IMG/VR virus record: IMGVR_UViG_3300023222_000558
Location: 1 to 39,658 of that record
Direction: 5' to 3' (one strand)
Length of the DNA: 39,658 bases
Source: a virus
Within the stretch, counting starts at the first letter, position 1, and every line of letters begins with the position of its first letter. Below, in pieces: positions 14,799 through 36,882 of this stretch. The notes beneath the pieces were generated by a model. That model was not told the origin of the DNA, ran no database searches, and worked only from the letters and a program-made list of their open reading frames with translations. The position numbers were made by a program, and so were the translations under genes.

Positions 14799-14811
14799 TA
14801 AAGATTAATGG

Positions 14812-25039: not shown

Positions 25040-25599
25040 GTTTCTAGTTCCTTAGGCGTGACTGGAAGTTGTTTAGAGTCTTTACGTTTTCCTCCCTCTA
25101 TTACATTCTCTTTGATAAATTTGTTAAAGGCCATGGCGAGAGGGGTTTTCTCCTGCATTTCTGTGACTATCTGAGTAGCAACGTTTAGAGTCTGTCTAAT
25201 GTGAGATTCTGCATAAGCTAGCTTGCGATCTTTAGGATGAAGCTCACACTGTTTAGATAATTGCATGGCTCTCTTTTCTAGAGCGATAACATTTTTCCAT
25301 TGAATTTTTAGGACATTAACTAAATTTTGTACGTGGCCTGAGCGTGCCTGATATGTGAGATATGCCTCCACTAGACTCGTGGCTTTTTGATCTAACATGT
25401 TAAAAGCTGCCTTAGATGGGATAGCCAGGTGTTTTATGATTTCTTCTTCAGAGTAACCCATACCACGCATAAACTGAAATTTCTCGAATTTGGTCTCTCC
25501 TGGTATTTGGAGCATAAGTTCTTTTGAGGAGGCTCGCTTAGGCATAGGTTTTTGATCTCCTATAGAATCATCTTGAGCGTACAGATTATTAAAAGCCAC
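25036..25599 (-). CDS. Putative terminase small subunit, 187 aa
   Basis: An N-terminal helix-turn-helix-like segment (FMRGMGYSEEEIIKHLAIPSKAAF, residues about 42-66) is followed by a long helical middle (SHIRQTLNVATQIVTEMQEK) suited to oligomerisation. It is the first late gene, upstream of the large terminase, and small terminases recognise the packaging site. The product type is inferred from position and helix-turn-helix. Its late promoter lies about 25 nt upstream, divergent from the early operon. Confidence 0.65.
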   Translation of the reverse strand: MAFNNLYAQDDSIGDQKPMPKRASSKELMLQIPGETKFEKFQFMRGMGYSEEEIIKHLAIPSKAAFNMLDQKATSLVEAYLTYQARSGHVQNLVNVLKIQWKNVIALEKRAMQLSKQCELHPKDRKLAYAESHIRQTLNVATQIVTEMQEKTPLAMAFNKFIKENVIEGGKRKDSKQLPVTPKELET

Positions 25600-25616
25600 T
25601 AATAATTAAGGGCAAT

Positions 25617-25638
25617 TACTATAATAAAAGAATTGATA
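25617..25638 (-). promoter_or_regulatory. Late promoter for the morphogenesis operon
   Basis: The plus-strand ACTATAATAAAAGAATTGATA matches the motif before 8486 and 11216, with two extra A in the middle. The TATA-like core is about 25 nt from the ATG at 25599. Confidence 0.6.
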
Positions 25639-25643: not shown

Positions 25644-25665
25644 ATAACAACCCTTAAACATTAAG
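25644..25665 (+). promoter_or_regulatory. Early palindromic promoter element
   Basis: AACAACCCTTAAACATTAAG; centre at 25659 is 24 nt before the TTG at 25683. Six nucleotides from the divergent late promoter, so factors bound here could switch both. Confidence 0.75.
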
Positions 25666-25682
25666 ATTATGATTCTTCAATA

Positions 25683-26009
25683 TTGACTCTAGTTAATTTC
25701 TACGTGACAGGCATAAATTACCAAAACAAACAATGCTTTATCACTCTCCATGAGATTCTAGCTACTGGAAAAAAAGAAAAAATTGTAGATAAGATAAAAT
25801 CACAATTACCCTCATTCCTACAAAGTACAATTCCTAAAGATTTCGAGGATCATTTAGGTCACCAAATTAGTATCTCTACTACTCCTGAAGAATACGAATC
25901 CACAGATATTAAAATAGGCCAGGTAGTAAAGGTTGATATGCCTACGAAGCTCGCAGATATCATATTGATAGAAAAACCATACGAAAAATCAGAAATAAAG
26001 CTAGAATGA
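25683..26009 (+). CDS. Hypothetical early protein, 108 aa
   Basis: The TTG start fits a leaderless transcript from the element 24 nt upstream; GTG at 25704 is an alternative. The sequence has alternating beta strands and helices (YQNKQCFITLHEILATG, KIGQVVKVDM, KLADIILIEKP). It has an Sm/OB-like look but is not recognised. It overlaps the next gene by 4 nt. Confidence 0.6.
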   Translation: MTLVNFYVTGINYQNKQCFITLHEILATGKKEKIVDKIKSQLPSFLQSTIPKDFEDHLGHQISISTTPEEYESTDIKIGQVVKVDMPTKLADIILIEKPYEKSEIKLE

Positions 26010-26197
26010 CCTGTAAAGGAAAATGCAATAGATACATAGCTCCTAAAGTAGCTTTTGCCAAATATTCATTAGGTCAAAAACGCTGTAGTAGATGCGACGT
26101 ATTTCTAATTTGGGAGGGAATCCACTGTCCCTGCTGTGGTTGTATGCTACGACTAAAGCCTAGAAGAAAAGTCCTACCTGAGCCAGTAGTGCAATAA
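26006..26197 (+). CDS. Nitrososphaerota-type double zinc-ribbon protein, 63 aa
   Basis: The N-terminus MTCKGKCNRY, then 'LGQKRCSRCDVFLIWEG', then 'CPCCGCMLRLKPR' is a pattern I know from many small proteins of ammonia-oxidising archaea, with three Cys groups that can hold one or two zinc ions. This is one of the best host markers in the window. It probably binds nucleic acid or a transcription factor. ATGA coupling to the upstream gene. Confidence 0.8.
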   Translation: MTCKGKCNRYIAPKVAFAKYSLGQKRCSRCDVFLIWEGIHCPCCGCMLRLKPRRKVLPEPVVQ

Positions 26198-26250
26198 CCC
26201 TTAAACATTAAGGTTAAATACAAATTTTGTAAGCCACGTTGGAGGTGAAA
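26196..26250 (+). repeat. 55-nt promoter-leader, copy 1
   Basis: Identical to 35696-35750: palindrome (CCCTTAAACATTAAGG), TATA-like TTAAATAC, the small palindrome ACAAATTTTGT, and a Shine-Dalgarno GGAGGTGA 6 nt before the ATG at 26254. The first bases overlap the stop of the upstream gene. Confidence 0.85.
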
Positions 26251-26253
26251 CAA

Positions 26254-26463
26254 ATGAATAGCGCTGATGAAGATCTTATCAAAATTCTCCTGGAGCAATT
26301 AGTAAAATTAGACGCTTCTATAGAATATCTCAACCAACTAAAAACAGATATGCACAATGGAGACGACGTAAAAATAGCAGATATCGAGACTTCACTCAAA
26401 ATCATTATTGAGTCAAAAACATACAAGTTGAAAAGACTGCATGAATTAATATCTAAAAACTAG
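26254..26463 (+). CDS. Helical hypothetical protein, 69 aa
   Basis: The ATG at 26254 follows GGAGGTG by 6 nt; a TTG at 26239 in the same frame lies within the Shine-Dalgarno and is unlikely. The product is two or three helices (DLIKILLEQLVKLDASIEYL, DIETSLKIIIESKTYKLKRL), probably a coiled-coil dimer. Driven by the same promoter-leader as the secreted protein at 35760, so the two should be co-regulated. Confidence 0.7.
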   Translation: MNSADEDLIKILLEQLVKLDASIEYLNQLKTDMHNGDDVKIADIETSLKIIIESKTYKLKRLHELISKN

Positions 26464-26546
26464 AATCCTGAAGCAATTCTATTACACCATTTTTCTTTTT
26501 AAATTTTAATCTTTAAATCTAACATTAACTTATATTAAATCAGTAA

Positions 26547-27518
26547 TTGAAATTGAAGAAAATAATAGTAATTTTGGTATTTCTAGTGATCTTTACTGTT
26601 CCTGTTGTATATGCTCAAGGTACTTCAAATCTGTTTGTTACACTAGATAAAACAGAATATCATTTAGGAGATACACTAAAAATTAGCGGAACTACAAATC
26701 CACATTTTAATGATCATCCTGTTAGAATTTATGTATCTAATGATGATGGCAAATCCATATTAATTTCAAACATATATGCAGACCAAAATGGTAATTTCAC
26801 ACAAAATATTTTGTTAGATATAGATAGTTTTTCATATAAAGAGAATACAATTAAAGTACACTTTAGAGGAGAAGTAACAAATCTAGAGTTTGTTCTTGAT
26901 GAGTCAAATATAGAAGAACCATCATCTAAAACAGAACATGACATAAAGAAATCAAATGGAGGATGCTTTGATTGTGTTCCGCCAACCTTAGGTTATGATA
27001 GACATGGAATTAAAAAAGTAGATAACGGAATTTGCATAAACAAATCCTGCATTGATGGTGGTAAATATCATACATATTTTACACAGAATACTTTTTTGTA
27101 TTATCCAACCACAGTATCTCTAATTTATTATGAAAATTATGGACCACACAATATAAAAATAGTACAGCTTGGTGTTGGGTCTGAACATGGATCTCCAATT
27201 AATAAATCTGAGGCACTCATTGAAGTCTGGCTGAATAGATTTTCAAATGATATGTATAATCCTACAATAAAAGAGGTAAAAATTATAGATCCTGATGGAT
27301 TGTTGTATTTTACCAATATATCAGTCGAAATAGTACCTTGTCTTAGTGGATCTTGTCTGAAGACTGATTTTGTTTTTTCATATACAAAAGTACCAGATAG
27401 TAGCATTCTAGTAACTAATGCAATTGATTGGAATGGAAGTGCAATAAATAATTATATTATGGATGGATTGGATGTAATCTCAACTTCTAAAAGAAATATC
27501 GTTATTCAATTTAGTTGA
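26547..27518 (+). CDS. Secreted beta-sandwich protein of archaeal type, 323 aa
   Basis: A signal peptide (about residues 3-23, KKIIVILVFLVIFTVPVVYA) is followed by 'VTLDKTEYHLGDTLKISGTT', the opening of a beta-sandwich domain widespread in Nitrososphaerota secreted proteins. The C-terminal 200 residues hold several Cys (CFDCVP, CINKSC, CLSGSC) that may form disulfides. The start is TTG at 26547 or 26553; no Shine-Dalgarno, so leaderless. It may alter the host surface, for example to exclude superinfection. Few CTAG sites and the host-like domain suggest acquisition from the host. Confidence 0.7.
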   Translation: MKLKKIIVILVFLVIFTVPVVYAQGTSNLFVTLDKTEYHLGDTLKISGTTNPHFNDHPVRIYVSNDDGKSILISNIYADQNGNFTQNILLDIDSFSYKENTIKVHFRGEVTNLEFVLDESNIEEPSSKTEHDIKKSNGGCFDCVPPTLGYDRHGIKKVDNGICINKSCIDGGKYHTYFTQNTFLYYPTTVSLIYYENYGPHNIKIVQLGVGSEHGSPINKSEALIEVWLNRFSNDMYNPTIKEVKIIDPDGLLYFTNISVEIVPCLSGSCLKTDFVFSYTKVPDSSILVTNAIDWNGSAINNYIMDGLDVISTSKRNIVIQFS

Positions 27519-27526
27519 ACTGTCAA

Positions 27527-27802
27527 TTATAGGATCACCAAATCAGGCTGTTTTGTCTTTATACCATCAACTTTAACCCACCAATGTCTAAAATGATCAT
27601 ACTTGTCATATTGATAATTACATTCTGCAATATCCCAAACCTCATAACCTACCATAACCAATTCATCTATGACATGTTGGCTTTCACCCTCGTAAACCTC
27701 AGCACAATTATTACACCTTTCTTTTCCTAACTCATAATCACATTTTTTTCCATAGATAGTTTCACATTTATTAGTATTAAGTTCAATTATCAAATACTTC
27801 AT
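27527..27802 (-). CDS. Cys-containing hypothetical protein, 91 aa
   Basis: CETIYGKKC followed by CNNC gives four Cys for zinc in the first third; the remainder is acidic and aromatic (YQYDKYDHFRHWWVKVDG). GAAGGA lies a few nucleotides before the ATG, and the gene is 114 nt from the preceding mini-gene, so it may have its own promoter. Convergent with the secreted protein gene. Not recognised. Confidence 0.6.
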   Translation of the reverse strand: MKYLIIELNTNKCETIYGKKCDYELGKERCNNCAEVYEGESQHVIDELVMVGYEVWDIAECNYQYDKYDHFRHWWVKVDGIKTKQPDLVIL

Positions 27803-27916
27803 AATTCCTTCCCATGAACCTCTTTCATATGTAAGATGTATATGGAATTTCTACTAGTCTTAAAGGAGCAACATATACAATGAAATGTTGATTGTTGCCT
27901 AGGAGTGCCTGATTTT

Positions 27917-28039
27917 CTAGTCATCTCTCATCTCCATAAACCGTCTAGCCTCACCACTTTTAACATGAGTGTTCATTATATGATGTCCTAACTGGTCTAA
28001 AATGTTGAATTCTTTATCACAAAAGTTACAGTTATGCAT
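27917..28039 (-). CDS. C2H2-type zinc finger mini-protein, 40 aa
   Basis: CNFCDKEF, then LGHH and NTH: Cys-x2-Cys-x11-His(His)-x5-His, the classical C2H2 finger with Phe and Leu core residues in place. The ATG overlaps the upstream stop by 8 nt. Single C2H2 fingers are known in archaeal viruses as DNA-binding regulators; the role here is inference. Confidence 0.7.
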   Translation of the reverse strand: MHNCNFCDKEFNILDQLGHHIMNTHVKSGEARRFMEMRDD

Positions 28040-28172
28040 TATTCCCCCCATAATGTACATAATCAAATTCTTCAAATTCATATCCATCACAATTTTTACA
28101 AATTCTTGGAACTGACGAATATTGTTTCCTACACCAAGGAGTTTTACAAACGATTGTTTTTATCATTTCCAT
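28032..28172 (-). CDS. Zinc-ribbon mini-protein, 46 aa
   Basis: CKTPWC and CKNC groups 19 residues apart, followed by an acidic tail (DGYEFEEFDYVHYGG). It begins directly at the end of the previous stop (TAAATG). Member of the run of tiny zinc proteins transcribed from about 29.6 kb. Confidence 0.6.
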   Translation of the reverse strand: MEMIKTIVCKTPWCRKQYSSVPRICKNCDGYEFEEFDYVHYGGNNA

Positions 28173-28271
28173 TTAGTAAGGCAACCCCCTTTTATCAGCA
28201 CATCTTTTACAATGACCCCAGTTTCTTTTTAGATGTGTAGACCCACAATAGAAACATTCTTGCTCAGTCAT
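28173..28271 (-). CDS. Zinc-ribbon mini-protein, 32 aa
   Basis: ECFYCGSTH followed by HCKRCADKRG: two Cys pairs with flanking His, basic C-terminus. ATGA overlap with the upstream gene. Only 32 residues, so the zinc site is essentially the whole protein. Confidence 0.65.
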   Translation of the reverse strand: MTEQECFYCGSTHLKRNWGHCKRCADKRGLPY

Positions 28272-28522
28272 TGCTTATCCTCCAATAATGTATATGGCTG
28301 CGATACGATAAAACCTAACATATTCAATAATACAGTCTTACAATCTGGACAACAATGTTCACCGTTAGCTAATCCTGTACAGTAATCTAATTTATGAATA
28401 TTACATTTCATTTCCTCTACATATTCAGGACTTGCACAGTCATCACAAATATCTACCATTCCTCCAAAGAATTCTTTTCTTCTTTGAGAACCACAATCAG
28501 CACAGACTTTAGTCATTTTCAT
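28268..28522 (-). CDS. Double zinc-ribbon protein, 84 aa
   Basis: Two sites: CADCGSQ with CDDC, and a second with CNIHKLDYC and CCPDC. Two ribbons in tandem suggest an adaptor for protein or RNA. The start overlaps the preceding stop by 14 nt. Unrecognised beyond the folds. Confidence 0.65.
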   Translation of the reverse strand: MKMTKVCADCGSQRRKEFFGGMVDICDDCASPEYVEEMKCNIHKLDYCTGLANGEHCCPDCKTVLLNMLGFIVSQPYTLLEDKQ

Positions 28523-28715
28523 CCCTCCCTAAACATTTGTTACAAAAATTAACATCATCAATGACGTTTTTATTAGTTGACATTATCTCTCTTTTCTCTT
28601 CACAAGAAGCACATGTTACTGTGTATCTGGCCCAAGTTTTAAGACTACCATCAAAAACATCGTTAAAAGATTTACCATCAACCAAATTATAGAGTTTTTT
28701 TGTGAATTCAGTCAT
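28509..28715 (-). CDS. Zinc-ribbon protein, 68 aa
   Basis: A helical N-terminal half (FTKKLYNLVDGKSFNDVF) precedes a ribbon with CASC and CNKC separated by about 20 residues. Overlap of 8 nt with the upstream gene and 14 nt with the downstream gene shows a tight operon. Function unknown. Confidence 0.65.
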   Translation of the reverse strand: MTEFTKKLYNLVDGKSFNDVFDGSLKTWARYTVTCASCEEKREIMSTNKNVIDDVNFCNKCLGRDEND

Positions 28716-29133
28716 TATTTCTCTCCAAATAAATTATAGTCTTTATCTTTGCATACTCAGTTAGTTGATTATAGTCATCAGTTTCACAGTCAATTAGTCT
28801 AGGCTCAATACCAACTATGTGAAAACCTGATTTTTCAATTCCCTGAACTTGTCTAATTGTTAATCTAAAATCTTTGGCATAATGAATAATGTATACTTTG
28901 GATGTTTTAGTTTGTTCATCATATGTTACCCCATACTTTCTATTAGGAAATAACAACTCAACATCATGTTCTAGTGTTATAACATCACAATTCCAAATTC
29001 TAACATCGCAATTAGGATGTTGCATACAAGAAGCACATTTACAATCTATCATTTCTTCTTCTCCTGAAATGCTATCAAAGGCATCAAATGACTTGAAAAC
29101 AAAACAACGTCTGGAGGTATTTAATTTCCTCAT
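28708..29133 (-). CDS. Cys-rich hypothetical protein, 141 aa
   Basis: A Cys cluster (CKCASCMQHPNC, then NCD) lies at about residues 30-52; the rest is an alpha/beta domain (KVYIIHYAKDFRLTIRQVQG, FHIVGIEPRLIDCE). An internal ATG at 29052 has GGAGAAG upstream and could be the true start, placing the Cys cluster at the N-terminus. Not recognised. Confidence 0.55.
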   Translation of the reverse strand: MRKLNTSRRCFVFKSFDAFDSISGEEEMIDCKCASCMQHPNCDVRIWNCDVITLEHDVELLFPNRKYGVTYDEQTKTSKVYIIHYAKDFRLTIRQVQGIEKSGFHIVGIEPRLIDCETDDYNQLTEYAKIKTIIYLERNND

Positions 29134-29163
29134 CTAGCCTCTGATAACTATAATGTTTATTCA

Positions 29164-29358
29164 TTATTTACTCCGAAGTTTTACAAGATATTTTTTTCGT
29201 GCTGTGATTTGTTTAGGTGTTCTATTAGCATATCTTATTCTTTGTGCTTTAGCTATCTCTTCTAAATGCTCGTGGGAATATTTCTTGGCATATTTGAGTT
29301 GTTTCACTCGAAAGACGGTATCTGTTCTATACCTCTTTTGCATGTATGTTTCAGTCAT
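29164..29358 (-). CDS. Small basic protein, 64 aa
   Basis: Very Lys/Arg/Tyr-rich and helical (KQLKYAKKYSHEHLEEIAKA, NRTPKQITARKKYLVKLRSK), net strongly positive. Repeats of a Y-A/R-K pattern resemble small nucleic-acid-binding proteins. ATGA-like overlap with the upstream mini-gene. Confidence 0.6.
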   Translation of the reverse strand: MTETYMQKRYRTDTVFRVKQLKYAKKYSHEHLEEIAKAQRIRYANRTPKQITARKKYLVKLRSK

Positions 29359-29476
29359 TTCTCAATCCTTCAGTTATTAAACGATCAAAAATAGCTTTAA
29401 TTTCAACAGCTTGCTTAGGTGTAATTCCTCTCAAATGATCATCTAAATATTTCTCTATTACTTTTACATTATTCAT
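29351..29476 (-). CDS. Helical mini-protein, 41 aa
   Basis: MNNVKVIEKYLDDHLRGITP followed by KQAVEIKAIFDRLITEGL: two helices. Start and stop both overlap neighbours (ATGA and 8 nt), which supports expression although it is short. Unrecognised. Confidence 0.6.
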   Translation of the reverse strand: MNNVKVIEKYLDDHLRGITPKQAVEIKAIFDRLITEGLRND

Positions 29477-29595
29477 AAGGCATCAATCTCCTTTAACACA
29501 GTAATAATCTCACCAATCTTATCATACTCCTCCCAGTCACCAACGTATAGATCTTGTTTTCTCTCTAACTCTATGATCTTCTCTTGGAGATTCAT
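29473..29595 (-). CDS. Helical mini-protein, 40 aa, first gene of its operon
   Basis: MNLQEKIIELERKQDLYVGD, then an amphipathic helix. The ATG lies 27 nt from the centre of the palindromic element at 29614-29630, the leaderless spacing used by the other early operons. Coiled-coil type; function unknown. Confidence 0.6.
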   Translation of the reverse strand: MNLQEKIIELERKQDLYVGDWEEYDKIGEIITVLKEIDAL

Positions 29596-29613
29596 TATAC
29601 TAGATATGAGAAT

Positions 29614-29641
29614 CCCTTAACGTATAAGGGTTATGGTGTCT
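29614..29641 (-). promoter_or_regulatory. Early palindromic promoter element (TACGT variant)
   Basis: The minus strand CCCTTATACGTTAAGGG is shared, with flanks totalling 28 nt, with 36588-36615 on the plus strand. It overlaps the stop codon of the upstream gene. Confidence 0.75.
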
Positions 29642-29900
29642 TTATAATCAAATTTTTAATCTTGATTTTCCATTGGCGCTGCTCTTCCTCAGTCATAATT
29701 AACTGACCATACGATAAATTTCGAGCTTTACGATATTTCCCATAAGATACAATATCTTCTAATAAATTATCTATGAGCACCTCTAGAATCTTCTTAGGCT
29801 CATTAGTGTGAAATGCCTGCATAAATGTTCTATCAATATTGGCTTTCTTCACTATAAGATCTATTAGAACAACCATAGATTCTTGATTAAGATCCTTCAT
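29631..29900 (-). CDS. Helical hypothetical protein, 89 aa
   Basis: All-helical (MVVLIDLIVKKANIDRTFMQ, ILEVLIDNLLEDIVSYGKYR, EEEQRQWKIKIKNLIIK). GAGGA stands immediately before the ATG, and the start overlaps the preceding gene by 14 nt. The stop falls in the next promoter element. Not recognised. Confidence 0.6.
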   Translation of the reverse strand: MKDLNQESMVVLIDLIVKKANIDRTFMQAFHTNEPKKILEVLIDNLLEDIVSYGKYRKARNLSYGQLIMTEEEQRQWKIKIKNLIIKTP

Positions 29901-29991
29901 TCCTCATCCCTTTTACTGTATTACCAAATAATATCCACTGGATACTTTCACTAGGCACAAGTCTCTCTATCTCATCCAAAGTATATTCCAT
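29887..29991 (-). CDS. Mini-protein, 34 aa
   Basis: The ATG at 29991 sits 23 nt from the centre of the element at 30011-30030, the same spacing as in the other early operons, so I prefer it to an in-frame ATG at 30009 that would lie inside the promoter. The product (MEYTLDEIERLVPSESIQWI) is acidic and helical. Function unknown. Confidence 0.5.
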   Translation of the reverse strand: MEYTLDEIERLVPSESIQWILFGNTVKGMRNEGS

Positions 29992-30008
29992 AGTAGAGAG
30001 TAAATCCA

Positions 30009-30260
30009 TTATTGTTTAAGGGTTGTTATTTTCTTTTTAGGTTTTGGCTTCATTAATTCATTTTTGATAAATTCATAGATTTGTAATTTTTTAAGATCAG
30101 TTTCAACTCCAATTAGTCGATTTAGGAGGATTACAGCTTCAGTTGTAGTCACACCTGTTTTTTCTCCTGGATTCTTGCAGGAGTTACAAATTGGCTGTCC
30201 TGTCTTAGATATGGTAATTTCTGTATTAGAGGAAAGGCATTCATGGCACAAACCTCTCAT
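30009..30260 (-). CDS. Zinc-ribbon protein with basic tail, 83 aa
   Basis: CHEC and CNSC pairs about 17 residues apart at the N-terminus (MRGLCHECLSSNTEITISKT), a helical middle, and a Lys-rich end (KPKPKKKITTLKQ). The last five codons double as part of the next promoter element. ATGA coupling with the upstream gene. Confidence 0.65.
   Translation of the reverse strand: MRGLCHECLSSNTEITISKTGQPICNSCKNPGEKTGVTTTEAVILLNRLIGVETDLKKLQIYEFIKNELMKPKPKKKITTLKQ
30011..30030 (-). promoter_or_regulatory. Early promoter element, half-palindromic
   Basis: The minus strand AATAACAACCCTTAAACAAT keeps the left half only. Its centre is 23 nt before the ATG at 29991 and it is embedded in the end of an upstream gene. 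Confidence 0.6.
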
Positions 30261-30583
30261 TTCATATCTTTGATGTATTGGATAACTTCTGTGAGTGGTT
30301 TAGAGTTCCCTTTTAGAATCATTATAGATTGACTACTACGATTTTTGATCTCAGCTTGATAGATTGGAAATTTTGCATACATAAAATGAGTAAAAAGCAT
30401 TATTTTTTTATCGAATAATGTTTCATCAAATAGTTTCGCATGTGGGGCTATAATAGTGAAGAGATAGCCATCAGTCCAATAGAGAGGTGCTTGATTTGTT
30501 ATATCTGCTAATTCTTCAGGTGAATACTCGCTTATCTCACCTATGAGAACTTCTTTGATATCTATCTCAGATATGATAGTCAT
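30257..30583 (-). CDS. Hypothetical protein, 108 aa
   Basis: Alpha/beta composition (DGYLFTIIAPHAKLFDETLF, KIMLFTHFMYAKFPIYQAEI, SIMILKGNSKPLTEVIQYIK), no Cys. Four-nt overlaps with both neighbours. It is not a family I recognise; a small enzyme-like or anti-host factor fold is possible. Confidence 0.55.
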   Translation of the reverse strand: MTIISEIDIKEVLIGEISEYSPEELADITNQAPLYWTDGYLFTIIAPHAKLFDETLFDKKIMLFTHFMYAKFPIYQAEIKNRSSQSIMILKGNSKPLTEVIQYIKDMK

Positions 30584-30768
30584 GCTTTCATCTTGGTTAA
30601 TCTTGCTTCTTGCATGTCCTTCTCTAGTTTAGCTGCTTTTTGTCTCTCCCTCTCAGGAAGGACTACAACATAAAAACAATCAGCACAATAGGCATTAATG
30701 AAACTAATCGTAACGCTACAAAAGGGACATTTACGATTGAAGAATGTAAGTCCTGGAGGAAGATTCAT
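30580..30768 (-). CDS. Zinc-ribbon protein with coiled-coil tail, 62 aa
   Basis: CPFC and CADC pairs 13 residues apart, then a charged helix (ERERQKAAKLEKDMQEARLT). The ATG overlaps the stop of the ribbon-helix-helix gene (ATGA), so the two may be partners. Confidence 0.65.
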   Translation of the reverse strand: MNLPPGLTFFNRKCPFCSVTISFINAYCADCFYVVVLPERERQKAAKLEKDMQEARLTKMKA

Positions 30769-30923
30769 TCGCCTGTAATTCCTAACTGCTTTCTGAGGGC
30801 TACACGAATCACTTTAGATCTATTAGCTTGATCATCAGTTTCTCGTTGTTTAGTTACTTCCACATCCACTTTCTCAATATCATTCTGAGTTAGACCTATA
30901 GTTATCGGTAGTTTCTTAGCCAA
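30765..30923 (-). CDS. Ribbon-helix-helix (CopG/Arc-like) regulator, 52 aa
   Basis: 'KKLPITIGLTQNDIEKVDVE', then 'QANRSKVIRVALRKQLGI' gives a beta strand, helix A, turn (NRSK) and helix B, the full ribbon-helix-helix core. The TTG start lies 25 nt from the centre of the promoter element at 30941-30967 and fits a leaderless mRNA. Such dimers bind short palindromes and often repress their own promoter, so this is my best candidate for the factor that reads the palindromes. That link is inference. Confidence 0.7.
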   Translation of the reverse strand: MAKKLPITIGLTQNDIEKVDVEVTKQRETDDQANRSKVIRVALRKQLGITGE

Positions 30924-30940
30924 TTTGATTAGAGTTAGAT

Positions 30941-30967
30941 TCTTAAGGTTTAAGGGTTGTTATGACA
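30941..30967 (-). promoter_or_regulatory. Early palindromic promoter element
   Basis: The minus strand CATAACAACCCTTAAACCTT continues into AAG. It overlaps the end of the upstream gene and is centred 25 nt before the TTG of the ribbon-helix-helix gene. Confidence 0.75.
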
Positions 30968-31183
30968 TGGGAGAGAGCCGTCTCTCCCTATTCCTTTCCA
31001 TAGTTTTTCAGCTTCTTCTGGAGTGTGAATCTGAACATAATTTTCGGTGTAATCTGTGCATAATCTGATAAAATCATCTTTACATACTGCGTCGTTACTA
31101 TCTTGATTTTTAATTATCTTGCAGCCATCTTTGAGAGTGTTACAAATAAAACACTTGTATTTACCTTCAGTCTGTGGGTGCAT
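30950..31183 (-). CDS. Cys-rich zinc-binding protein, 77 aa
   Basis: CFIC, a second group CKIIK, AVCKDDF and RLC give four to six potential ligands, an RING/treble-clef-like spacing rather than a plain ribbon. The C-terminus is helical. The start overlaps the preceding mini-gene by 17 nt. Confidence 0.6.
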   Translation of the reverse strand: MHPQTEGKYKCFICNTLKDGCKIIKNQDSNDAVCKDDFIRLCTDYTENYVQIHTPEEAEKLWKGIGRDGSLPCHNNP

Positions 31184-31310
31184 CAGTCTTCTTTATGGCT
31201 TCTTTATTGATATAATTAATGATTTCATTGGTTTTGTTGAAATTATCCATAATGGAGGTATCTTTCTTATTCATTGGTTCTATGACATTGGTATATTTCT
31301 TTTTGGTCAT
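31167..31310 (-). CDS. Hypothetical mini-protein, 47 aa
   Basis: MTKKKYTNVIEPMNKKDTSI, then a helix (MDNFNKTNEIINYINKEAIK). Start is coupled to the upstream stop (TAATG). Lys/Asn-rich, no Cys. Unrecognised. Confidence 0.5.
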   Translation of the reverse strand: MTKKKYTNVIEPMNKKDTSIMDNFNKTNEIINYINKEAIKKTDAPTD

Positions 31311-31633
31311 TACTTAGCCTCAGTAGGTCTTAGTGCTGGCTGTTGTACTTTAAAGTCTAACTTAAGCATGGTGCCACAGAAGGCGTGATATGTATTTTTT
31401 TCAAAGTAAATACAGTGCATTCCAAACAAGATCTCTTTGGTTTTAACAGGGCATTTATCATAATCACAGATTTGGACTTTATCATATTTTGGTTCTAAGA
31501 TTTTAGATGTGGCTTTTTTGATTGGAGTTTGAGTTGAGATAGTAACAGTCTCAGTGGTATCAATTCCAGTAGCGGTAGTATTTTGAATGTCTGCTGTACC
31601 TGAATTGTCTACTTTATCCTGTGGTATGGCCAT
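31310..31633 (-). CDS. Thr-rich protein with Cys-rich C-terminus, 107 aa
   Basis: A disordered, Thr-rich first half (TTATGIDTTETVTISTQTP) precedes a Cys/His segment (CDYDKC, HCIYF, HAFC) that may bind zinc. It heads a three-gene operon 23 nt downstream of the diverged element at 31650-31675. Function unknown. Confidence 0.6.
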   Translation of the reverse strand: MAIPQDKVDNSGTADIQNTTATGIDTTETVTISTQTPIKKATSKILEPKYDKVQICDYDKCPVKTKEILFGMHCIYFEKNTYHAFCGTMLKLDFKVQQPALRPTEAK

Positions 31634-31649
31634 AAATAGTGAAATTTAC

Positions 31650-31675
31650 CATAGTTTATCAAGGTTGTTATGTCA
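31650..31675 (-). promoter_or_regulatory. Diverged early promoter element
   Basis: The minus strand TGACATAACAACCTTGATAA keeps the left flank and a weak palindrome; centred about 23 nt before the ATG at 31633. Confidence 0.55.
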
Positions 31676-31876
31676 AAAAGGATTGTCTTTCTCTAAACTG
31701 ATAACTTTCTCAGACTTTTCTAGGTATTCGGTAGGAGGATTTACAATATCAGGAGCTTCGACAGCAGGAGAAGGTGATTTAGCTTCTAAATCTAGTCTCA
31801 GTCTAGCTACTTCTACTTCTAGAATTTCAATTCTTTCCTGCATTAATGCTATTCTTTGATCATCTTCAGGCGACAA
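31673..31876 (-). CDS. Coiled-coil protein, 67 aa
   Basis: An uninterrupted heptad helix (DDQRIALMQERIEILEVEVA, RLRLDLEAKS) is followed by a Pro-rich linker and a charged end. Probably a dimeric coiled coil. The start overlaps the upstream zinc-ribbon gene by 11 nt. Confidence 0.6.
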   Translation of the reverse strand: MSPEDDQRIALMQERIEILEVEVARLRLDLEAKSPSPAVEAPDIVNPPTEYLEKSEKVISLEKDNPF

Positions 31877-32066
31877 TTTTTAACTCTTGGGTCTTTTCTA
31901 GTTTTAGGCGCTCTCGTCTCTTCTTAACGATAACTGCGAGTTGTAGTTTTTTTCTCTCTACTTGGCATACATTACAGTATAATCTAGTAGATAGAGCGTT
32001 TATTGGAAGTTGATTAGTGCATTCCCCACTACTGCAATATAGATTATAATCGTTAGATTTACTCAT
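31866..32066 (-). CDS. Zinc-ribbon protein with basic helix, 66 aa
   Basis: CSSGEC and CNVC groups form the site, then a long basic helix (KKRRERLKLEKTQELKIVA). TAATG coupling to the upstream gene. The helix suggests nucleic-acid contact. Confidence 0.6.
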   Translation of the reverse strand: MSKSNDYNLYCSSGECTNQLPINALSTRLYCNVCQVERKKLQLAVIVKKRRERLKLEKTQELKIVA

Positions 32067-32266
32067 TAGTAGCCTCTTCCCTTGGTTTCTTTCATTAGAA
32101 CTTCTAAGTGTTCCTTAAAGATAGTGATAGTGACTTCAACACATTGGTTTCGCTGTTGAGTTGATAAAAGAGGATATTTTTGTTTTAAAACTACTAAAAC
32201 TTGTTTTTTGTTGATAATGGCTGGATTTAATAGGATTTTTTCAATAATTTTAGAGATTTCAGGCAT
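32066..32266 (-). CDS. Helical hypothetical protein, 66 aa
   Basis: Helical throughout (ISKIIEKILLNPAIINKKQV, CVEVTITIFKEHLEVLMKET). Start coupled as TAATG. No family seen. Confidence 0.55.
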   Translation of the reverse strand: MPEISKIIEKILLNPAIINKKQVLVVLKQKYPLLSTQQRNQCVEVTITIFKEHLEVLMKETKGRGY

Positions 32267-32421
32267 TACAGATACTCCATAGGAATTATAATAGATTTAG
32301 GCACTATTTTAATTGTATAAGCTAATTTCACTAATTTTTGAGAGTCTCTTTTAGTTATTGGTTTTCGTGCCAATATCTCCATAGTGTAGTCGTAGAGTTT
32401 ATCAATCTGAGGTAATTCCAT
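32266..32421 (-). CDS. Hypothetical mini-protein, 51 aa
   Basis: MELPQIDKLYDYTMEILARK followed by KRDSQKLVKLAYTIKIVPKS: helices with a basic C-terminus. Both ends coupled to neighbours by TAATG, which supports it as a gene. Function unknown. Confidence 0.55.
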   Translation of the reverse strand: MELPQIDKLYDYTMEILARKPITKRDSQKLVKLAYTIKIVPKSIIIPMEYL

Positions 32422-32714
32422 TATTCTATCATTTCCCTTGGTGCGTTACGAATACCCAAATAACAGACTAATTTTAGATACATTCCTACCCTGCTAGAGT
32501 TTGGAGGAGTCTTTCCAATAGTTAATTTATTAATAGTTCTATGCTCTAATGCTCTCAATAAATCTATATTATCATCAAAATTTTTAAGAATATTAGGAGG
32601 TAATTGCTCCAAGAGAAAGTCTAAGAATTTAGCATTAGTCTCGTTACTAGCTAGAATTTCGTCTCTACGTGTGAGTAAAAATTCCTCTTCTTTTGTGAGT
32701 TGTTTAGATGACAT
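32421..32714 (-). CDS. Helical hypothetical protein, first gene of operon, 97 aa
   Basis: Helical and charged (KEEEFLLTRRDEILASNETN, NFDDNIDLLRALEHRTINKL) with a C-terminal segment 'GMYLKLVCYLGIRN'. The ATG is 26 nt from the centre of the perfect 7+3+7 palindrome at 32732-32748, consistent with leaderless expression. Unrecognised. Confidence 0.6.
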   Translation of the reverse strand: MSSKQLTKEEEFLLTRRDEILASNETNAKFLDFLLEQLPPNILKNFDDNIDLLRALEHRTINKLTIGKTPPNSSRVGMYLKLVCYLGIRNAPREMIE

Positions 32715-32731
32715 AATGGTAATTCTAGCAT

Positions 32732-32757
32732 CCCTTAATGTTTAAGGGTTGTTATTG
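32732..32757 (-). promoter_or_regulatory. Early promoter element, perfect palindrome
   Basis: CCCTTAAACATTAAGGG, the most symmetric copy. The AATAACAA flank overlaps the stop of the methyltransferase gene. Confidence 0.8.
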
Positions 32758-33198
32758 CAGAATTGCGATCATAGAGTCGAAAGGTGCGCCTGCTGCATTT
32801 GAGGCTGAGCCGTCAGCGTCTCCAAATTTTATGCGTCTATCACATAATCGAAACTCAGCTCCAGCCTTTCTTAGAGTTTTGAAATAGTCTGAATTTCTGA
32901 GAGGAATTAGGAATACTGCTAATTCTGCGTTACCACGCTTAATTTCATAGATGGCCTTTTGTACCCATACATTAACTAGACCTCGCTTATAGGGAGGATT
33001 GATATAATTTCGTGTTTTTTTCTTACTAGAAATAACCCATTTAGAGCGCAGGCCATCTTTTAGACCTGGACCAATTAGAGGTTTATTGGTAGGATCTTGG
33101 TTAAAGTGAAATTCTTTATGAAGATCATTAAAAATAGGTAGTGGCGTATCCCAATGTATAGATTTAGAGCTGAAGATTACTTTTTTAAAATCAGTCAT
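32752..33198 (-). CDS. Dam-type DNA adenine-N6 methyltransferase (phage family)
   Basis: 148 residues with 'WDTPLPIFNDLHKEFHFNQD' at the start, the catalytic 'INPPY' at 66-70, and 'RRIKFGDADGSASN' plus 'GAPFDSMIAIL' at the end, the signature order of the phage-type Dam family (DNA N-6-adenine methyltransferase, PF05869-like). It transfers a methyl group from S-adenosylmethionine to adenine in DNA, probably to evade host restriction. Coupled to the upstream gene by a 4-nt overlap. Target site not deducible. Confidence 0.88.
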   Translation of the reverse strand: MTDFKKVIFSSKSIHWDTPLPIFNDLHKEFHFNQDPTNKPLIGPGLKDGLRSKWVISSKKKTRNYINPPYKRGLVNVWVQKAIYEIKRGNAELAVFLIPLRNSDYFKTLRKAGAEFRLCDRRIKFGDADGSASNAAGAPFDSMIAILQ

Positions 33199-33524
33199 TT
33201 TTGTTGAGGGATAGCGCCTTGTGGTTTCTCTTTTGGAATATTGGTAGCTGGACTTGTTTCTGGAGTGTTTGGCTCGTCTTTTTCTTCTACATTTAGGACT
33301 ATTTTCTCAGCGTCTTCTTTGGCTGCTCTATCTTCAGATTCTCCTAAGATACAGGCATCATTTACGACGGTAGCTCCTAATTCCTCAGCTACTTGATCAA
33401 AAGCGAATTTTGCTATTTGTGCATCTTGCACATTATCAAAACTGCCAATAAAGTAGCTTAGAGAGACCTTTTGTTTGTCTTCGTTATTGACTTGGCCTAT
33501 GGTGATATTTGCTTTACCTTCCAT
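33195..33524 (-). CDS. Hypothetical early protein, 109 aa
   Basis: A beta/alpha domain (ANITIGQVNNEDKQKVSLSY, AQIAKFAFDQVAEELGATVV) followed by a disordered Pro/Glu tail. The ATG lies 23 nt from the centre of the promoter element. It precedes the methyltransferase in the same operon, so the two may act together. Not recognised. Confidence 0.6.
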   Translation of the reverse strand: MEGKANITIGQVNNEDKQKVSLSYFIGSFDNVQDAQIAKFAFDQVAEELGATVVNDACILGESEDRAAKEDAEKIVLNVEEKDEPNTPETSPATNIPKEKPQGAIPQQK

Positions 33525-33540
33525 AATGAGAAGAATTGAT

Positions 33541-33566
33541 CTTAGCCTTTAAGGGTTGTTATGACA
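33541..33566 (-). promoter_or_regulatory. Early promoter element
   Basis: The minus strand CATAACAACCCTTAAAGGCT continues into AAG. The right half is diverged; spacing to the ATG at 33524 is 23 nt. Confidence 0.7.
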
Positions 33567-33698
33567 CAGACACCTTCATTTCCTATCAACTTTAAATGAG
33601 GTTTATGTTAATTTTATTTATTTTCTAAAAAATAATTTTTTAAAAAATACCTAGTGGAAGTATAGGTGTCTCACCTTTAATAGAAGGTGTGTGGGTTA

Positions 33699-34007
33699 AT
33701 GATTGTGGCGAAAAAAGGAAGCCTAAAACATGAAGAAAAGGTAAAAGAATTTTTAAAGAAATTGGAATTTGAAGGCTGGCGAGTAATTAATCTAAATGCT
33801 AAATCACCTGACGGTATAGCTGTTAAAGATGGAAAGATTTGTGCTGTAGAGATACTCAAAAAAATTAAAACATTAAGAAAGAATCCGATAACAGCAGCTA
33901 AAAAAGGAAAATATGTATGGAGATTTTCAGGAGGTTTCACTATGACACAAAAGAGATCTATCTATTCTATGTTTGATGAGGTACTCTTTGAGACTTATAC
34001 AGATTAG
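33699..34007 (+). CDS. PD-(D/E)XK nuclease-like protein, 102 aa
   Basis: The ATG at 33699 has AAGGTG about 9 nt upstream; a GTG at 33687 lies inside that site. 'GWRVINLNAKSPDGIAVKDG' followed by 'CAVEILKK' gives Asp38, Glu51 and Lys54 in the PD-(D/E)XK nuclease pattern. The size fits minimal archaeal and viral nucleases such as resolvase-like proteins. It stands alone on the plus strand, convergent with 34004-34540. Substrate unknown. Confidence 0.6.
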   Translation: MIVAKKGSLKHEEKVKEFLKKLEFEGWRVINLNAKSPDGIAVKDGKICAVEILKKIKTLRKNPITAAKKGKYVWRFSGGFTMTQKRSIYSMFDEVLFETYTD

Positions 34008-34540
34008 GAGGCTATAAGATTCATATTATCAGATCTAGCCTTGGAAAATTCCTCTACAGTCATAAATCCATTAGAGTAGATAGTTAGATCTCTTTTTGTG
34101 TAACAGTCAGCTAGGAAATAATGTAGTTTAACCTCTACAACCTCAAAAGGCTCTGACTCCCAAATTTTACAAACTGAGAATCCTAGATAATTTCTGTCTC
34201 GTTTAGTGTCTCTAGGATTAGATAAATCTCCAGGATGGCCATGTCCTTTTTTCGCTAGGTGAGCGCCTGGTTTACGTGGTCCATTTTCTTCCTCATATTC
34301 TATAATAATTTTAGAGTAATAGTCGCAAATATCGGGTTCCTGGAGAGTCCAGCCGTTCTTATTGACTTCTTTCCAGTCTTTGAAATCTGTAGGGATCATA
34401 GTTGCTCCATCTTTAATGAGGAATGCTGTCTCATAGGTACCTAGATCCTCTTTGAATTGGTATGGCCAGCCAAATTCCTTACACTGTTTAGTCACAATTC
34501 TATAGATAGGGTAGATACGCGCGATATCACCAACACCCAT
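34004..34540 (-). CDS. Hypothetical protein, 178 aa
   Basis: The largest gene of this early operon: alpha/beta, with Trp- and Tyr-rich strands (GWTLQEPDICDYYSKIIIEY, EVVEVKLHYFLADCYTKRDL) and a basic Gly/Pro/His loop (RKPGAHLAKKGHGHPGDLSN). GAAGGAGAAG precedes the ATG. No family recognised. Confidence 0.6.
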   Translation of the reverse strand: MGVGDIARIYPIYRIVTKQCKEFGWPYQFKEDLGTYETAFLIKDGATMIPTDFKDWKEVNKNGWTLQEPDICDYYSKIIIEYEEENGPRKPGAHLAKKGHGHPGDLSNPRDTKRDRNYLGFSVCKIWESEPFEVVEVKLHYFLADCYTKRDLTIYSNGFMTVEEFSKARSDNMNLIAS

Positions 34541-34687
34541 TATCCGTCTTCTCCTTCTTCAATCTCTCAGTTTCTAAATCAAAACAGATCGTACATGAAA
34601 ATGAAAGGGTGCTTTTGAACTTTTTAGAGCGTAAATATCAAAAGCGTGTTTATTTTTTGGATGATTACAGATAGGGTATAGACTCAT
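34527..34687 (-). pseudogene. Zinc-ribbon ORF split by an apparent frameshift
   Basis: Begins ATGA-coupled at 34687 with 'SLYPICNHPKNKHAFDIYAL'. In frame 0 it stops at 34574 after 37 codons without the second Cys pair. A minus-one shift at the A5 run (34625-34621) gives 53 codons with 'KSTLSFSCTICFDLETERLK', which completes a C-x-H and CxxC site and ends inside the next gene. The run could be a real slip, a mutation or an assembly error. Confidence 0.5.
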
Positions 34688-34872
34688 TTCATTTTTCTCC
34701 TTAGTTTTGGCTCTTTAATTGGTACATCACACTGACGGCAAATTTTAGCTGAGTTGGTATTTTGAGCGTTACAGTTTCTACAAAATACTTTCTTTGATTT
34801 TGATGCTTGAGGTAGTTTGGTTTTCTTCATATATATGGTTTCTTTTTTCCATTTGGAGGAGTAGAGGCTCAA
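34684..34872 (-). CDS. Zinc-ribbon protein, 62 aa
   Basis: CRNC and CRQC pairs about 14 residues apart, Lys-rich flanks (KKTKLPQASKSKK, PKLRRKMK). The TTG at 34872 overlaps the preceding TGA (TTGA); ATG at 34830 is an alternative without a clear ribosome site. A zinc-ribbon of the 'zinc-ribbon plus basic tail' type. Confidence 0.6.
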   Translation of the reverse strand: MSLYSSKWKKETIYMKKTKLPQASKSKKVFCRNCNAQNTNSAKICRQCDVPIKEPKLRRKMK

Positions 34873-35042
34873 TAGTACATTTCCTCATAACATTTTTTAT
34901 GATACCTGTGACACATTTTACTTTTTGTAGATATAACCAAATCATTAATTTTCAAGGTTTTATCGCATTTTCTACAATGTTGTAGATAAGTATTGTTTCC
35001 TCTACTTATGTCGGCTAGTCTTAAGATTAATTCTCTGCTCAT
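34869..35042 (-). CDS. Zinc-binding protein, 57 aa
   Basis: CRKCDKTL followed by CHRYHKKC: Cys pair, then Cys, His and Cys ligands. The ATG at 35042 overlaps the upstream stop (ATGA) and has GGAG 8 nt upstream; a longer reading from 35075 is less likely. Helical N-terminus. A treble-clef or PARP-like short zinc fold is possible. Confidence 0.65.
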   Translation of the reverse strand: MSRELILRLADISRGNNTYLQHCRKCDKTLKINDLVISTKSKMCHRYHKKCYEEMYY

Positions 35043-35239
35043 TTGGTCTTCTCCACATATTTTCTGCAAGGACATAATTTTCTAGGAGGATAAGTAACGC
35101 CAGGCTCTACTACTGTATAGATAACGTGCATACAGTGATTATTTGGTCCATTATGCTCTTTCTCATAGTGAGTGCATTTCTCACATTGAGGACCTAATTC
35201 TTGAGATACGAATGGAGGAGATAGTTTAATTTCAGGCAT
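35039..35239 (-). CDS. Cys-rich zinc protein, 66 aa
   Basis: CEKCTHYEKEH, then NHCMH and CPCRKY: five Cys and several His. TAATG coupling to the upstream gene. The N-terminus is a short Pro-rich strand. Unrecognised. Confidence 0.6.
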   Translation of the reverse strand: MPEIKLSPPFVSQELGPQCEKCTHYEKEHNGPNNHCMHVIYTVVEPGVTYPPRKLCPCRKYVEKTK

Positions 35240-35568
35240 TAGATAGATTGTTTATAGGTTCCTTTCGGTTCTTGTGGAGATTCTCCTGCTAGTTGTTCAG
35301 ATCTAGGAGGAGGTGCTGCTATATGTTCAGGTTTAGGAGTTGGAATAGTAGTATCTACATTATTTTTCTTACACAAATCCATCAATCTGATATTTTCCTG
35401 ACTGATTAGTTCTATTTGGTTATTAAGGTGCATTGTCATTTTAAGATATGGATCTAAAATGCCAAATATATTATCTTGAAAATGAATAAATTCTAACTTT
35501 AGAGTTTCTCTATGCTTCATGGTATTTTCTTCCCAGGTTATTCGAGTGGAATTATCCTCAGGCTGCAT
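35239..35568 (-). CDS. Helical hypothetical protein, first gene of operon, 109 aa
   Basis: Residues 15-70 form an alpha-helical stretch (HRETLKLEFIHFQDNIFGIL, NNQIELISQENIRLMDLCKK), followed by a Pro-rich tail. The ATG is 23 nt from the centre of the diverged element at 35588-35612. Function unknown. Confidence 0.55.
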   Translation of the reverse strand: MQPEDNSTRITWEENTMKHRETLKLEFIHFQDNIFGILDPYLKMTMHLNNQIELISQENIRLMDLCKKNNVDTTIPTPKPEHIAAPPPRSEQLAGESPQEPKGTYKQSI

Positions 35569-35587
35569 ACAGAATTTTTAGTGTAGA

Positions 35588-35612
35588 TATTAATTAACGT
35601 TATTATGTCAAA
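35588..35612 (-). promoter_or_regulatory. Diverged early promoter element
   Basis: The minus strand TGACATAATAACGTTAATTA keeps the TGACATAA-AA flank; the spacing to the ATG at 35568 is 23 nt. The 191-nt gap here also carries the plus-strand leader at 35696. Confidence 0.5.
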
Positions 35613-35695
35613 AAAGAAGAAATGAAATTGGGATTAATTTTCTTTAGACTTTTTATTGTCCATAGATTAGACTTTATAATTAGATAATAAATAAC

Positions 35696-35750
35696 AACCC
35701 TTAAACATTAAGGTTAAATACAAATTTTGTAAGCCACGTTGGAGGTGAAA
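35696..35750 (+). repeat. 55-nt promoter-leader, copy 2
   Basis: Identical to 26196-26250, ending in GGAGGTGAAA. The ATG at 35760 is 12 nt after the Shine-Dalgarno, slightly far. Confidence 0.85.
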
Positions 35751-35759
35751 AAATAGAAG

Positions 35760-36521
35760 ATGAAAAATGAAGCATACATTATGGGAATTACACTCTTAAT
35801 GATGGGTTCTGTTGGTTTTGCATACGCAGGCCATGAAGGCTCTACCTTCACATATAATGAAGGATATGGCCCTGAACAAATCAAAGAATGTCAATTCTCA
35901 GCGTACATTGAAAAATCTTGGATCTTCTTTACAGAAAGGAGTCCTTGGGTTTCAGGCTGGATAACAGACTGTGATTCGAGTAATTTCTGGGAGAAGAACA
36001 GGTTATTTGTACGGATATTAGACATTAATGGAGACTTGGTAGAAGACACCTGGCAACCTCACGCAACAAAAGCCGATCCACTAGTTATGCCTTCCCTGTA
36101 TGAATTTACAGAGAGTGTTTATCGTGGAGGTAGTTATACAGGAAATGCCAATGTAGAAAGAGTTGAGTTAGTGCATATCGCACCTAATCAATACTTTTTT
36201 TACATGCCACAAGTCAACTCGATAGATTTTGAACATAGAGGAATCTATCAGATAGAATTGACATATGGTGACCATGTCAGAACCATTTGGTTCGCTTCAC
36301 TCGATCCTCAAATTCCTTGGAATGTTGATAAGGTTCCTGAGGAAGATCCATGTAACAACTATAAAAACAAACTGGACTTGTTAGAGAATACTCGCTTAGC
36401 CCTTGAAAGACAAATAGATAGATATGAAGGCTTAGGTCAAAAGGAAAAACTACAAGCCACTATAGCGTTATTGGATGAGAATCGAGAAGAGATAGAATCA
36501 TTAGAAAAATGTCAAGAATAA
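35760..36521 (+). CDS. Secreted protein with C-terminal coiled coil, 253 aa
   Basis: A signal peptide (ITLLMMGSVGFAYA, cleavage near residue 23) is followed by a beta-sandwich region (NRLFVRILDINGDLVEDTWQ, GIYQIELTYGDHVRTIWFAS) of the type seen in Nitrososphaerota surface proteins, then a helix (NKLDLLENTRLALERQID) ending in Cys. Cys pairs may form disulfides. It is expressed from the same promoter-leader as 26254-26463 and followed by a terminator. Possibly alters the host envelope or aids egress. Confidence 0.7.
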   Translation: MKNEAYIMGITLLMMGSVGFAYAGHEGSTFTYNEGYGPEQIKECQFSAYIEKSWIFFTERSPWVSGWITDCDSSNFWEKNRLFVRILDINGDLVEDTWQPHATKADPLVMPSLYEFTESVYRGGSYTGNANVERVELVHIAPNQYFFYMPQVNSIDFEHRGIYQIELTYGDHVRTIWFASLDPQIPWNVDKVPEEDPCNNYKNKLDLLENTRLALERQIDRYEGLGQKEKLQATIALLDENREEIESLEKCQE

Positions 36522-36551
36522 TATCTTACACCCCTCTTTTTTTTCCTCCTT

Positions 36552-36586
36552 CCTTTGTCCAGACGTGGACAAGGGCTATTTTTCTT
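36552..36586 (+). terminator. Hairpin terminator followed by T-run
   Basis: CCTTTGTCCA and TGGACAAGGG pair over ten bases (one G-T) around a GACG loop, followed by CTATTTTTCTT. A T-run also precedes it at 36537-36544. It ends the secreted-protein transcript. Confidence 0.7.
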
Positions 36587-36587
36587 C

Positions 36588-36615
36588 ACCATAACCCTTA
36601 TACGTTAAGGGATTA
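36588..36615 (+). promoter_or_regulatory. Early palindromic promoter element (TACGT variant)
   Basis: CCCTTATACGTTAAGGG; the 28-nt block is identical to the one at 29614-29641 on the minus strand. GAGGTGA (36628-36634) precedes the ATG at 36640. Confidence 0.75.
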
Positions 36616-36639
36616 TTCTATCTACAAGAGGTGAAATGA

Positions 36640-36882
36640 ATGAATAATGAAATACAGATCAGAATAGCGTTAATATCTCTGCTAAGTTTGATGGTCATAT
36701 TACTAATTTTAGTGCTGAGTTTAGATCGTGCTGAAATTAATGGTTTAGAGGATAAATTAGAAAAATCTCAGAGAGAATATGGCTACCTGGAAGAAATGTT
36801 AGAAGGTCCACTAACTAGAGGTTTTGAAGAATCTAATGATTTTAAAGAGAAAATCATGGAAGCGAAAGCCTCTCACACCTAA
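36640..36882 (+). CDS. Membrane-anchored coiled-coil protein, 80 aa
   Basis: One transmembrane segment at about 10-28 (LISLLSLMVILLILVLSL) is followed by a heptad helix (RAEINGLEDKLEKSQREYGY) and an acidic tail. The ATG follows GAGGTGA by 5 nt. Its stop overlaps the stop of the convergent fibre gene. Possible spanin- or membrane-organiser-like role, not established. Confidence 0.65.
   Translation: MNNEIQIRIALISLLSLMVILLILVLSLDRAEINGLEDKLEKSQREYGYLEEMLEGPLTRGFEESNDFKEKIMEAKASHT

Follow-up and report, generated by a model that had tools for sequence, protein, structure and literature searches.

The virus record IMGVR_UViG_3300023222_000558 of IMG/VR (39,658 bp, referred to here at its full length as the window) carries a short repeated element, ATAAYAACCCTTWWASNNTAAG, between 25.6 and 36.6 kb. 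Pattern and matrix searches of the window, with inspection by eye for one weak copy, located nine strong copies and two weak ones. A first-pass annotation of this DNA had described eleven copies, four on the plus strand and seven on the minus strand, and all of these sites exist. Copies are named by the first base of their AAYAA (strong copies 25646, 26193, 35693, and 36590 on the plus strand and 29635, 30027, 30961, 32753, and 33560 on the minus strand), and each spacing is the distance between the centre of the palindrome and the start codon (first base), with the value for 35568 counted from the sequence. The copies, together with the gene of a candidate regulator, are as follows.

25646-25667, plus strand: strong copy; leaderless TTG at 25683, 24 nt from the centre
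26193-26214, plus strand: strong copy with leader and Shine-Dalgarno (SD) sequence; gene at 26254; overlapped by the stop TAA of 26006-26197
29614-29635, minus strand: strong copy CCCTTATACGTTAAGGG; leaderless ATG at 29595, 27 nt
30006-30027, minus strand: strong copy; leaderless ATG at 29991, 23 nt; holds the stop of 30009-30260
30765-30923, minus strand: ribbon-helix-helix (RHH)-like protein of 52 aa (TTG read as M), candidate regulator, first gene behind copy 30961
30940-30961, minus strand: strong copy before the RHH-like gene; leaderless TTG at 30923, 25 nt; holds the stop of 30950-31183
31648-31669, minus strand: weak copy, 13.3 bits; ATG at 31633, 23 nt
32732-32753, minus strand: best copy, full dyad CCCTTAAACATTAAGGG; ATG at 32714, 26 nt
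33539-33560, minus strand: strong copy; ATG at 33524, 23 nt
35583-35604, minus strand: weak, degenerate copy GACATAATAACGTTAATTAATATC; ATG at 35568, 23 nt
35693-35714, plus strand: strong copy with leader and SD; its 66-nt promoter-leader is 94% identical to 26193-26258
36590-36611, plus strand: strong copy CCCTTATACGTTAAGGG, leader with GAGGTGA; ATG at 36640
25596-25619, minus strand: possible very weak copy, uncertain (6.1 bits, within chance), preceding the conserved terminase-adjacent gene 25036-25599

When scored with a matrix of 24 columns, built from the nine strong window copies and three copies of relatives and hence trained on the sites that it scores, the strong copies reached 31.5 to 38.5 bits and the rest of the window no more than 13.6 bits. 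The next scores were 13.6 (the 32753 copy read in reverse), 13.3 (the weak copy 31669), and 11.6, and 0.27 sites of at least 12 bits are expected in random windows with the same dinucleotide make-up. The core CCCTTWWASNNTAA was counted 9 times, where 0.017 occurrences would be expected, the core pattern itself having been derived from those copies. Weak copy 35604 was recognised by eye and by its distance to ATG 35568. None of the eleven copies lies inside a gene body, and the matrix scan of the window found no copy in the structural region and no strong copy that lacked a gene start downstream. The claim that every early operon is preceded by a copy holds for most units but not for all, as the transcription units at 26547 (plus) and 33687 (plus) have none. 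In addition, the 66-nt promoter-plus-leader module at 26193-26258 and 35693-35758 precedes two unrelated genes and probably arose when a regulatory unit was duplicated recently.

Spacing to the start codon is narrowly set. Eight copies were said to lie 23 to 27 nt before a start, and measured distances were 24, 27, 23, 25, 23, 26, 23, and 23 nt. The other three (26193, 35693, and 36590) stand 48, 54, and 37 nt upstream and, as had been stated, all carry an SD, GGAGGTGA or GAGGTGA; when copies of relatives are included, 4/4 copies with a leader have an SD, whereas no leaderless-type copy has one. If only the starts of longest open reading frames are counted, 5 of the 9 strong copies have a start 23 to 27 nt downstream, compared with 1.3 to 1.9% of positions (binomial p ~3e-7); among positions no more than 60 nt ahead of a gene start, this background is 8%. 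The proposal that one gene begins at 29991 rather than at 30009 is supported as well, since ATG 30009 falls inside the element and 29991, at 23 nt, fits the spacing rule.

On their other side, as noted before, copies run into or directly adjoin the 3' ends of the preceding genes, and they do so in several reading phases, the peptide ends being ITTLKQ, HNNP, LQ, and TP, each followed by the stop. CATAACAACCCTTAA is read as HNNP-stop, ATAACAACCCTTAAACAATAA as ITTLKQ-stop, and CAATAA as Q-stop. Because the overlapped genes read the copies in different phases, the constraint acts on the DNA and not on the peptide.

Elsewhere in the window, leaderless genes are preceded by TATAAATA, ATTAAATA, or boxes like them, with centres mostly at -25.5 to -27.5. 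Four such ordinary TATA boxes are listed.

14186-14193, minus strand: TATAAATA of gene 13319-14164, centre at -25.5
13278-13285, minus strand: TATAAATA of gene 12769-13254, centre at -27.5
20139-20146, minus strand: ATTAAATA of gene 19699-20115, centre at -27.5
7923-7930, minus strand: ATTAAATA of gene 7386-7901, centre at -25.5

When 85 gene starts from the window and six relatives were pooled, TATA-like 8-mers were most frequent at -27.5 to -25.5, where three positions together gave 14 matches, versus 1 to 3 per position elsewhere. The TTWWAS of the element stands at the same distance, provided that the start codon is the transcription start, and no canonical TATA box (7-of-8 match) was found before 25683, 32714, 33524, 35568, or 36640. 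Because TTWWAS lies at TATA distance and a canonical TATA box is missing from the leaderless element promoters examined, the element would be the core promoter itself, which we regard as very likely; we treat it as a putative TATA variant acting at the same place rather than as a standard member of the TATA class. The promoter role that had been proposed is thus well supported by the fixed spacing in the window and two relatives, by the SD sequences found only at longer distances, and by the ordinary TATA boxes at the same distance. A 54-nt repeat (74%) was also seen at 8506-8559 and 11235-11288, before genes 8226-8486 and 10914-11216, with a common TCAATTCTATTATACTA at the TATA position; it is perhaps a third promoter subclass.

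The symmetry of the element was evaluated over twelve copies. With all axes compared, the best one is at position 9, where 69% of symmetric pairs are complementary over ±8. CTTA and TAAG are near-invariant (one copy ends in TAAT, another reads CTTT), and TAA at positions 12 to 14 is invariant. AACAA upstream is as conserved as the dyad arms, positions 16 and 17 are not conserved, and the most conserved part, AACAACCCTT, extends past the dyad axis on one side only. The asymmetric upstream conservation is what would be expected of a B recognition element (BRE) and TATA box, and the inverted-repeat symmetry expected of an RHH operator of the SvtR/AvtR type is also present. What had been called a palindromic core is accordingly a genuine dyad, CCCTT/AAGGG, on the best of all axes, but an imperfect palindrome. 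Elsewhere in the window, at 14790-14818 on the minus strand, a perfect palindrome, CCATTAATCTTTAATGG, lies at the stop of 14812-16902; it has the 7-3-7 build of the element with another sequence (11.6 bits).

Among the queries used to find relatives of the virus was its terminase, which has the following coordinates.

22712-24706, minus strand: terminase large subunit (phrog_675, E=1.2e-13), used as query for relatives

Since a terminase large subunit is encoded, the virus is a tailed one. Terminase and portal searches retrieved L021 and L022 as closest relatives (terminase 74 to 78% identical) and L094, L103, L104, and L105 as farther ones (portal ~60% identical), and a protein of the small-gene region used as query retrieved L142 and L143. 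No close match to the lineage was found in the phage collection, and a terminase alignment search of genome contigs found no provirus. L021 has one copy of the element and L022 has two. Two of these three copies, found after the spacing rule had been stated, have an ATG at 24 nt (L021) and 23 nt (L022) without an SD; the third stands at 46 nt with an SD-like GGGAGAAGG. No copy was found in the more distant relatives, including L103 despite its syntenic small-gene region, in which a Dam-like methylase and the proteins of 34004-34540 and 25036-25599 are common to both genomes with their order kept. An L103 repeat, CATCTTAAACATTGGC (two copies), is core-like; it sits at the start codon with a TATA-like stretch upstream and was not counted. 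The first ~310 bases of L021 repeat and mirror 661-860, so that its positions 1-860 look like an assembly artefact at the contig end.

The L021 and L022 contigs do not extend over the small-gene region, and their copies lie where the window has none. In the window, L094, L103, and L104, the stretch from the homologue of 21885-22208 to the portal gene contains only an ordinary TATA box, TTTAAATAATA or ATATTAAATAA, placed ~26 nt before the portal start. At this place L022 carries a small-gene insertion (1560-2491) behind two element copies, and L021 a cassette remnant (4110-4260) that includes one copy and a reading frame of 18 codons. In each of the two, the portal's own TTTAAATA box is retained, and it matches that of the window, where no cassette is present. 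In these relatives the element travels with a small-gene cassette and not with a genome position, and the adjacent structural gene keeps the other promoter class. Since the copies of both relatives fall within the morphogenesis block, the element also occurs outside anything that could be called a separate "early region."

Among 257 Gb of prokaryote genomes (84,980 species), a longer pattern gave only eight scattered single matches, six of them in Vibrionales; the element is therefore not a common cellular promoter. Motif matches in viral contigs were many, single, and non-syntenic and were judged to be chance, L021 and L022 being the only contigs that are both relatives and carriers. By these sequence searches, the element seems restricted to one narrow lineage.

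We consider it probable that the element is a virus-specific core promoter that takes the place of the TATA region in one class of small-gene operons, with a dyad through which a factor would switch them together. Its left part, AACAACCC, would lie at the BRE position and TTWWAS at the TATA position, ~25 to 30 bp before a transcription start that for most copies would be the start codon itself, yielding leaderless mRNA. Read by the host machinery, it would drive most operons of small, mostly uncharacterised, possibly early proteins, and ordinary TATA boxes would drive several structural and other late-region units. On the CCTTA-N5-TAAGG dyad over the TATA position, a dimeric factor may compete with or help the TATA-binding protein (TBP) and transcription factor B (TFB). 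The simplest case would be an autoregulator encoded by the virus itself, for example the RHH-like protein of 30765-30923, and its action would switch all element operons together. We favour, on balance, the view that the operons with the element form a co-regulated class. For a dedicated operator on the dyad, which is a prediction, the chances appear nearly even and tilt slightly to the negative side. Of the combined TATA box and operator proposed in the first-pass annotation, the promoter at the TATA position is well supported; the operator is plausible, given a real axis, but the dyad is imperfect and AACAACCCTT one-sided.

Several observations weigh against this interpretation or parts of it. 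TTWWAS poorly matches the virus's own TATA boxes, TATAAATA and ATTAAATA. Copies 26193 and 35693 (plus) have a second TATA-like stretch, TTAAATA, just downstream, so that the element could there be an upstream site. The complete 17-bp palindrome occurs in only three window copies (32748, 29630, and 36595); in most copies the dyad is partial, and it could be a coincidence in a TATA region rich in A and T. As to the factor, the single-chain, single-sequence AlphaFold model of 30765-30923 is one long helix with no strand, a prediction that speaks neither for nor against an RHH fold, and L103, although it lacks the element, has a gene of RHH appearance (3270-3413, with no match in Pfam). With regard to an archaeal host, the list of terminase matches that includes haloarchaeal virus HHTV-1 (a weak match) also contains bacterial phages.

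The strongest competitor, to which we give a substantial though minority chance, is a core promoter and nothing more: a BRE and TATA variant favoured by one host TFB/TBP pair, with the palindrome as a by-product and no operator. Conservation is indeed asymmetric, with AACAACCCTT near-invariant and the right arm variable beyond TAAG, A/T interchange within TTWWA is typical of a TATA box, and every strong copy is near a start; what it leaves unexplained is why position 9 should be the best axis tested and why TAA (12 to 14), beyond the presumed TATA contacts on the downstream side, should never vary. Alternatively, the element could be an activator or repressor site upstream of or beside a separate weak TATA box, with transcription starting elsewhere, for example 10 to 15 nt before the codon. 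The TTAAATA stretches downstream of 26193 and 35693 would suit this, as would the class II repeats of halovirus HF2, proven promoters that score 16 bits and appear to have AAACCCTTTACCATTAATAG between TATA and start site. However, AATAACAA, the stretch upstream, does not qualify as a TATA box, and leaderless-type copies are without an SD or another TATA at -26, which makes such a site quite improbable.

A terminator of the preceding operon, formed by a CCCTTA...TAAGGG hairpin followed by T-rich DNA, would account for the overlap with upstream stops and for two copies that were flagged as terminator-like. Yet the distance to the downstream start is fixed and that to the upstream stop variable, the stems are short, and the divergent copies 25646, 33560, and 35693 end no gene on their own strand. 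A replication, packaging, or recombination site could also take the form of a short repeated dyad, and cassettes have been inserted beside copies in relatives; strict orientation and spacing to start codons, over 11 kb and in both orientations, argue otherwise. Both the terminator and the origin readings were rejected, as there is no fixed geometry on the upstream side, and we hold each to be extremely improbable. A further scenario keeps the promoter but alters its logic: the host machinery would read the palindromic TATA replacement poorly, a viral or host dimeric factor would select the promoter, and small-gene cassettes would pass from one viral genome to another with a private promoter. 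We judge this version improbable.

Returning to the core promoter with a dyad-bound factor, the RHH-like protein is a candidate for that factor. Its gene is the first behind copy 30961, as expected of an autoregulator, and it has an RHH look by eye with a Pfam RHH_1 match of E=0.006, under the curated cut-off. The claim that one factor, this protein, controls the whole region finds circumstantial support in this position and weak match and is set back by the RHH-looking gene of L103, which has no element beside it. That the protein acts on the element is thus a tentative suggestion that we rate as rather unlikely. By sequence, no relatives of the RHH-like proteins were found in the PDB; among the proteins of the element region, PADLOC gave no match to defence systems and NCBIfam was uninformative.

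An archaeal host is very probable, judging by the TATA and promoter geometry and by the weak HHTV-1 match. From protein style, ammonia-oxidising archaea may be guessed at as hosts. The literature on viruses of these archaea yielded no useful promoter data.

Further features of the window include an intergenic stretch at 930-1139 in which a 35-bp unit, TGAATTATGAATTATTGTGTGCCTAATAAGGATTA, is repeated exactly and in tandem ~four times, and a 42-nt repeat run at 4747-5228 within gene 4665-5285. A long run of 12-bp repeats (48 registers) lies at 9605-10400 inside gene 9060-10532, whose C terminus matches DUF6745 (E=2e-10). A structural-region protein, 18526-19695 on the minus strand, has a Pentaxin/Laminin_G-like domain (E=2e-16) that may perhaps serve in host-surface binding.

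Overall, the spacing rule allows transcription starts and operons to be predicted, and start codons to be corrected, in a tailed-virus lineage with almost no annotated genes, and the presence of two promoter classes in one genome makes control of timing directly testable. The nearest parallel is found in SIRV2 and other archaeal viruses, where a regulatory sequence around the core promoter is shared by nearly all early genes (PMC11065993); Aca8 is the likely repressor in SIRV2, and inverted repeats lie over the BRE in SMV2 (Bhoobalan-Chitty et al. 2024, PMC11065993). As there, one sequence with the core promoter is common to most small-gene units of an archaeal virus genome, a small virus-encoded protein (in the window, the RHH-like protein as a putative DNA-binding one) lies behind the same sequence, and an annotated start was corrected via the promoter. 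The element likewise precedes most units of the 11-kb region and not the structural genes. If the logic published for SIRV2 applies, early or anti-defence functions may be sought among the genes that the shared promoter precedes, with the RHH-like gene as their candidate regulator. In contrast, SIRV2 and SMV2 have a canonical TATA box, TTTAWATA, with a strong BRE, a winged helix-turn-helix regulator, and measured early expression, whereas the window has a non-canonical TATA with a dyad over its position and a putative RHH regulator in a tailed virus.

HF2, a tailed archaeal virus, has two classes of intergenic repeat promoters that were proven by reporter assay and primer extension (2021, PMC8707807). 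Its two classes, too, are split between gene regions, and they are conserved in its relatives. In its class II repeat, which serves late genes, the sequence AAACCCTTTACCATTAATAG scores 16 bits with the element matrix; this likeness is a selected one, having been looked for on account of the CCCTTTAC printed in the paper. By our own reading of the published numbers (PMC8707807) on the sequence, TATA appears upstream of the CCCTTTAC part. The proven class II promoters with this element-like sequence, at 14919-14966 and 36605-36652 of HF2 (L148), may be related or convergent.

Among archaeal viruses, the small RHH regulators SvtR (SIRV1), AvtR (AFV6), and F55 (SSV1) repress their own promoters, and the first two also bind several viral sites in the form of imperfect inverted repeats (PMC5569661). 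Their operators are unlike the candidate operator of the window in sequence and can lie away from TATA. A GTC motif downstream of TATA in SIRV1 and SIRV2 promoters is described as a virus-specific signature (Kessler et al. 2004, as cited in PMC5569661); it consists of three bases beside a normal TATA box, whereas the element is a 20-bp dyad that would replace TATA. The window element is a further example of an arrangement known from a few other archaeal viruses, set apart by a non-canonical TATA with a dyad over it.

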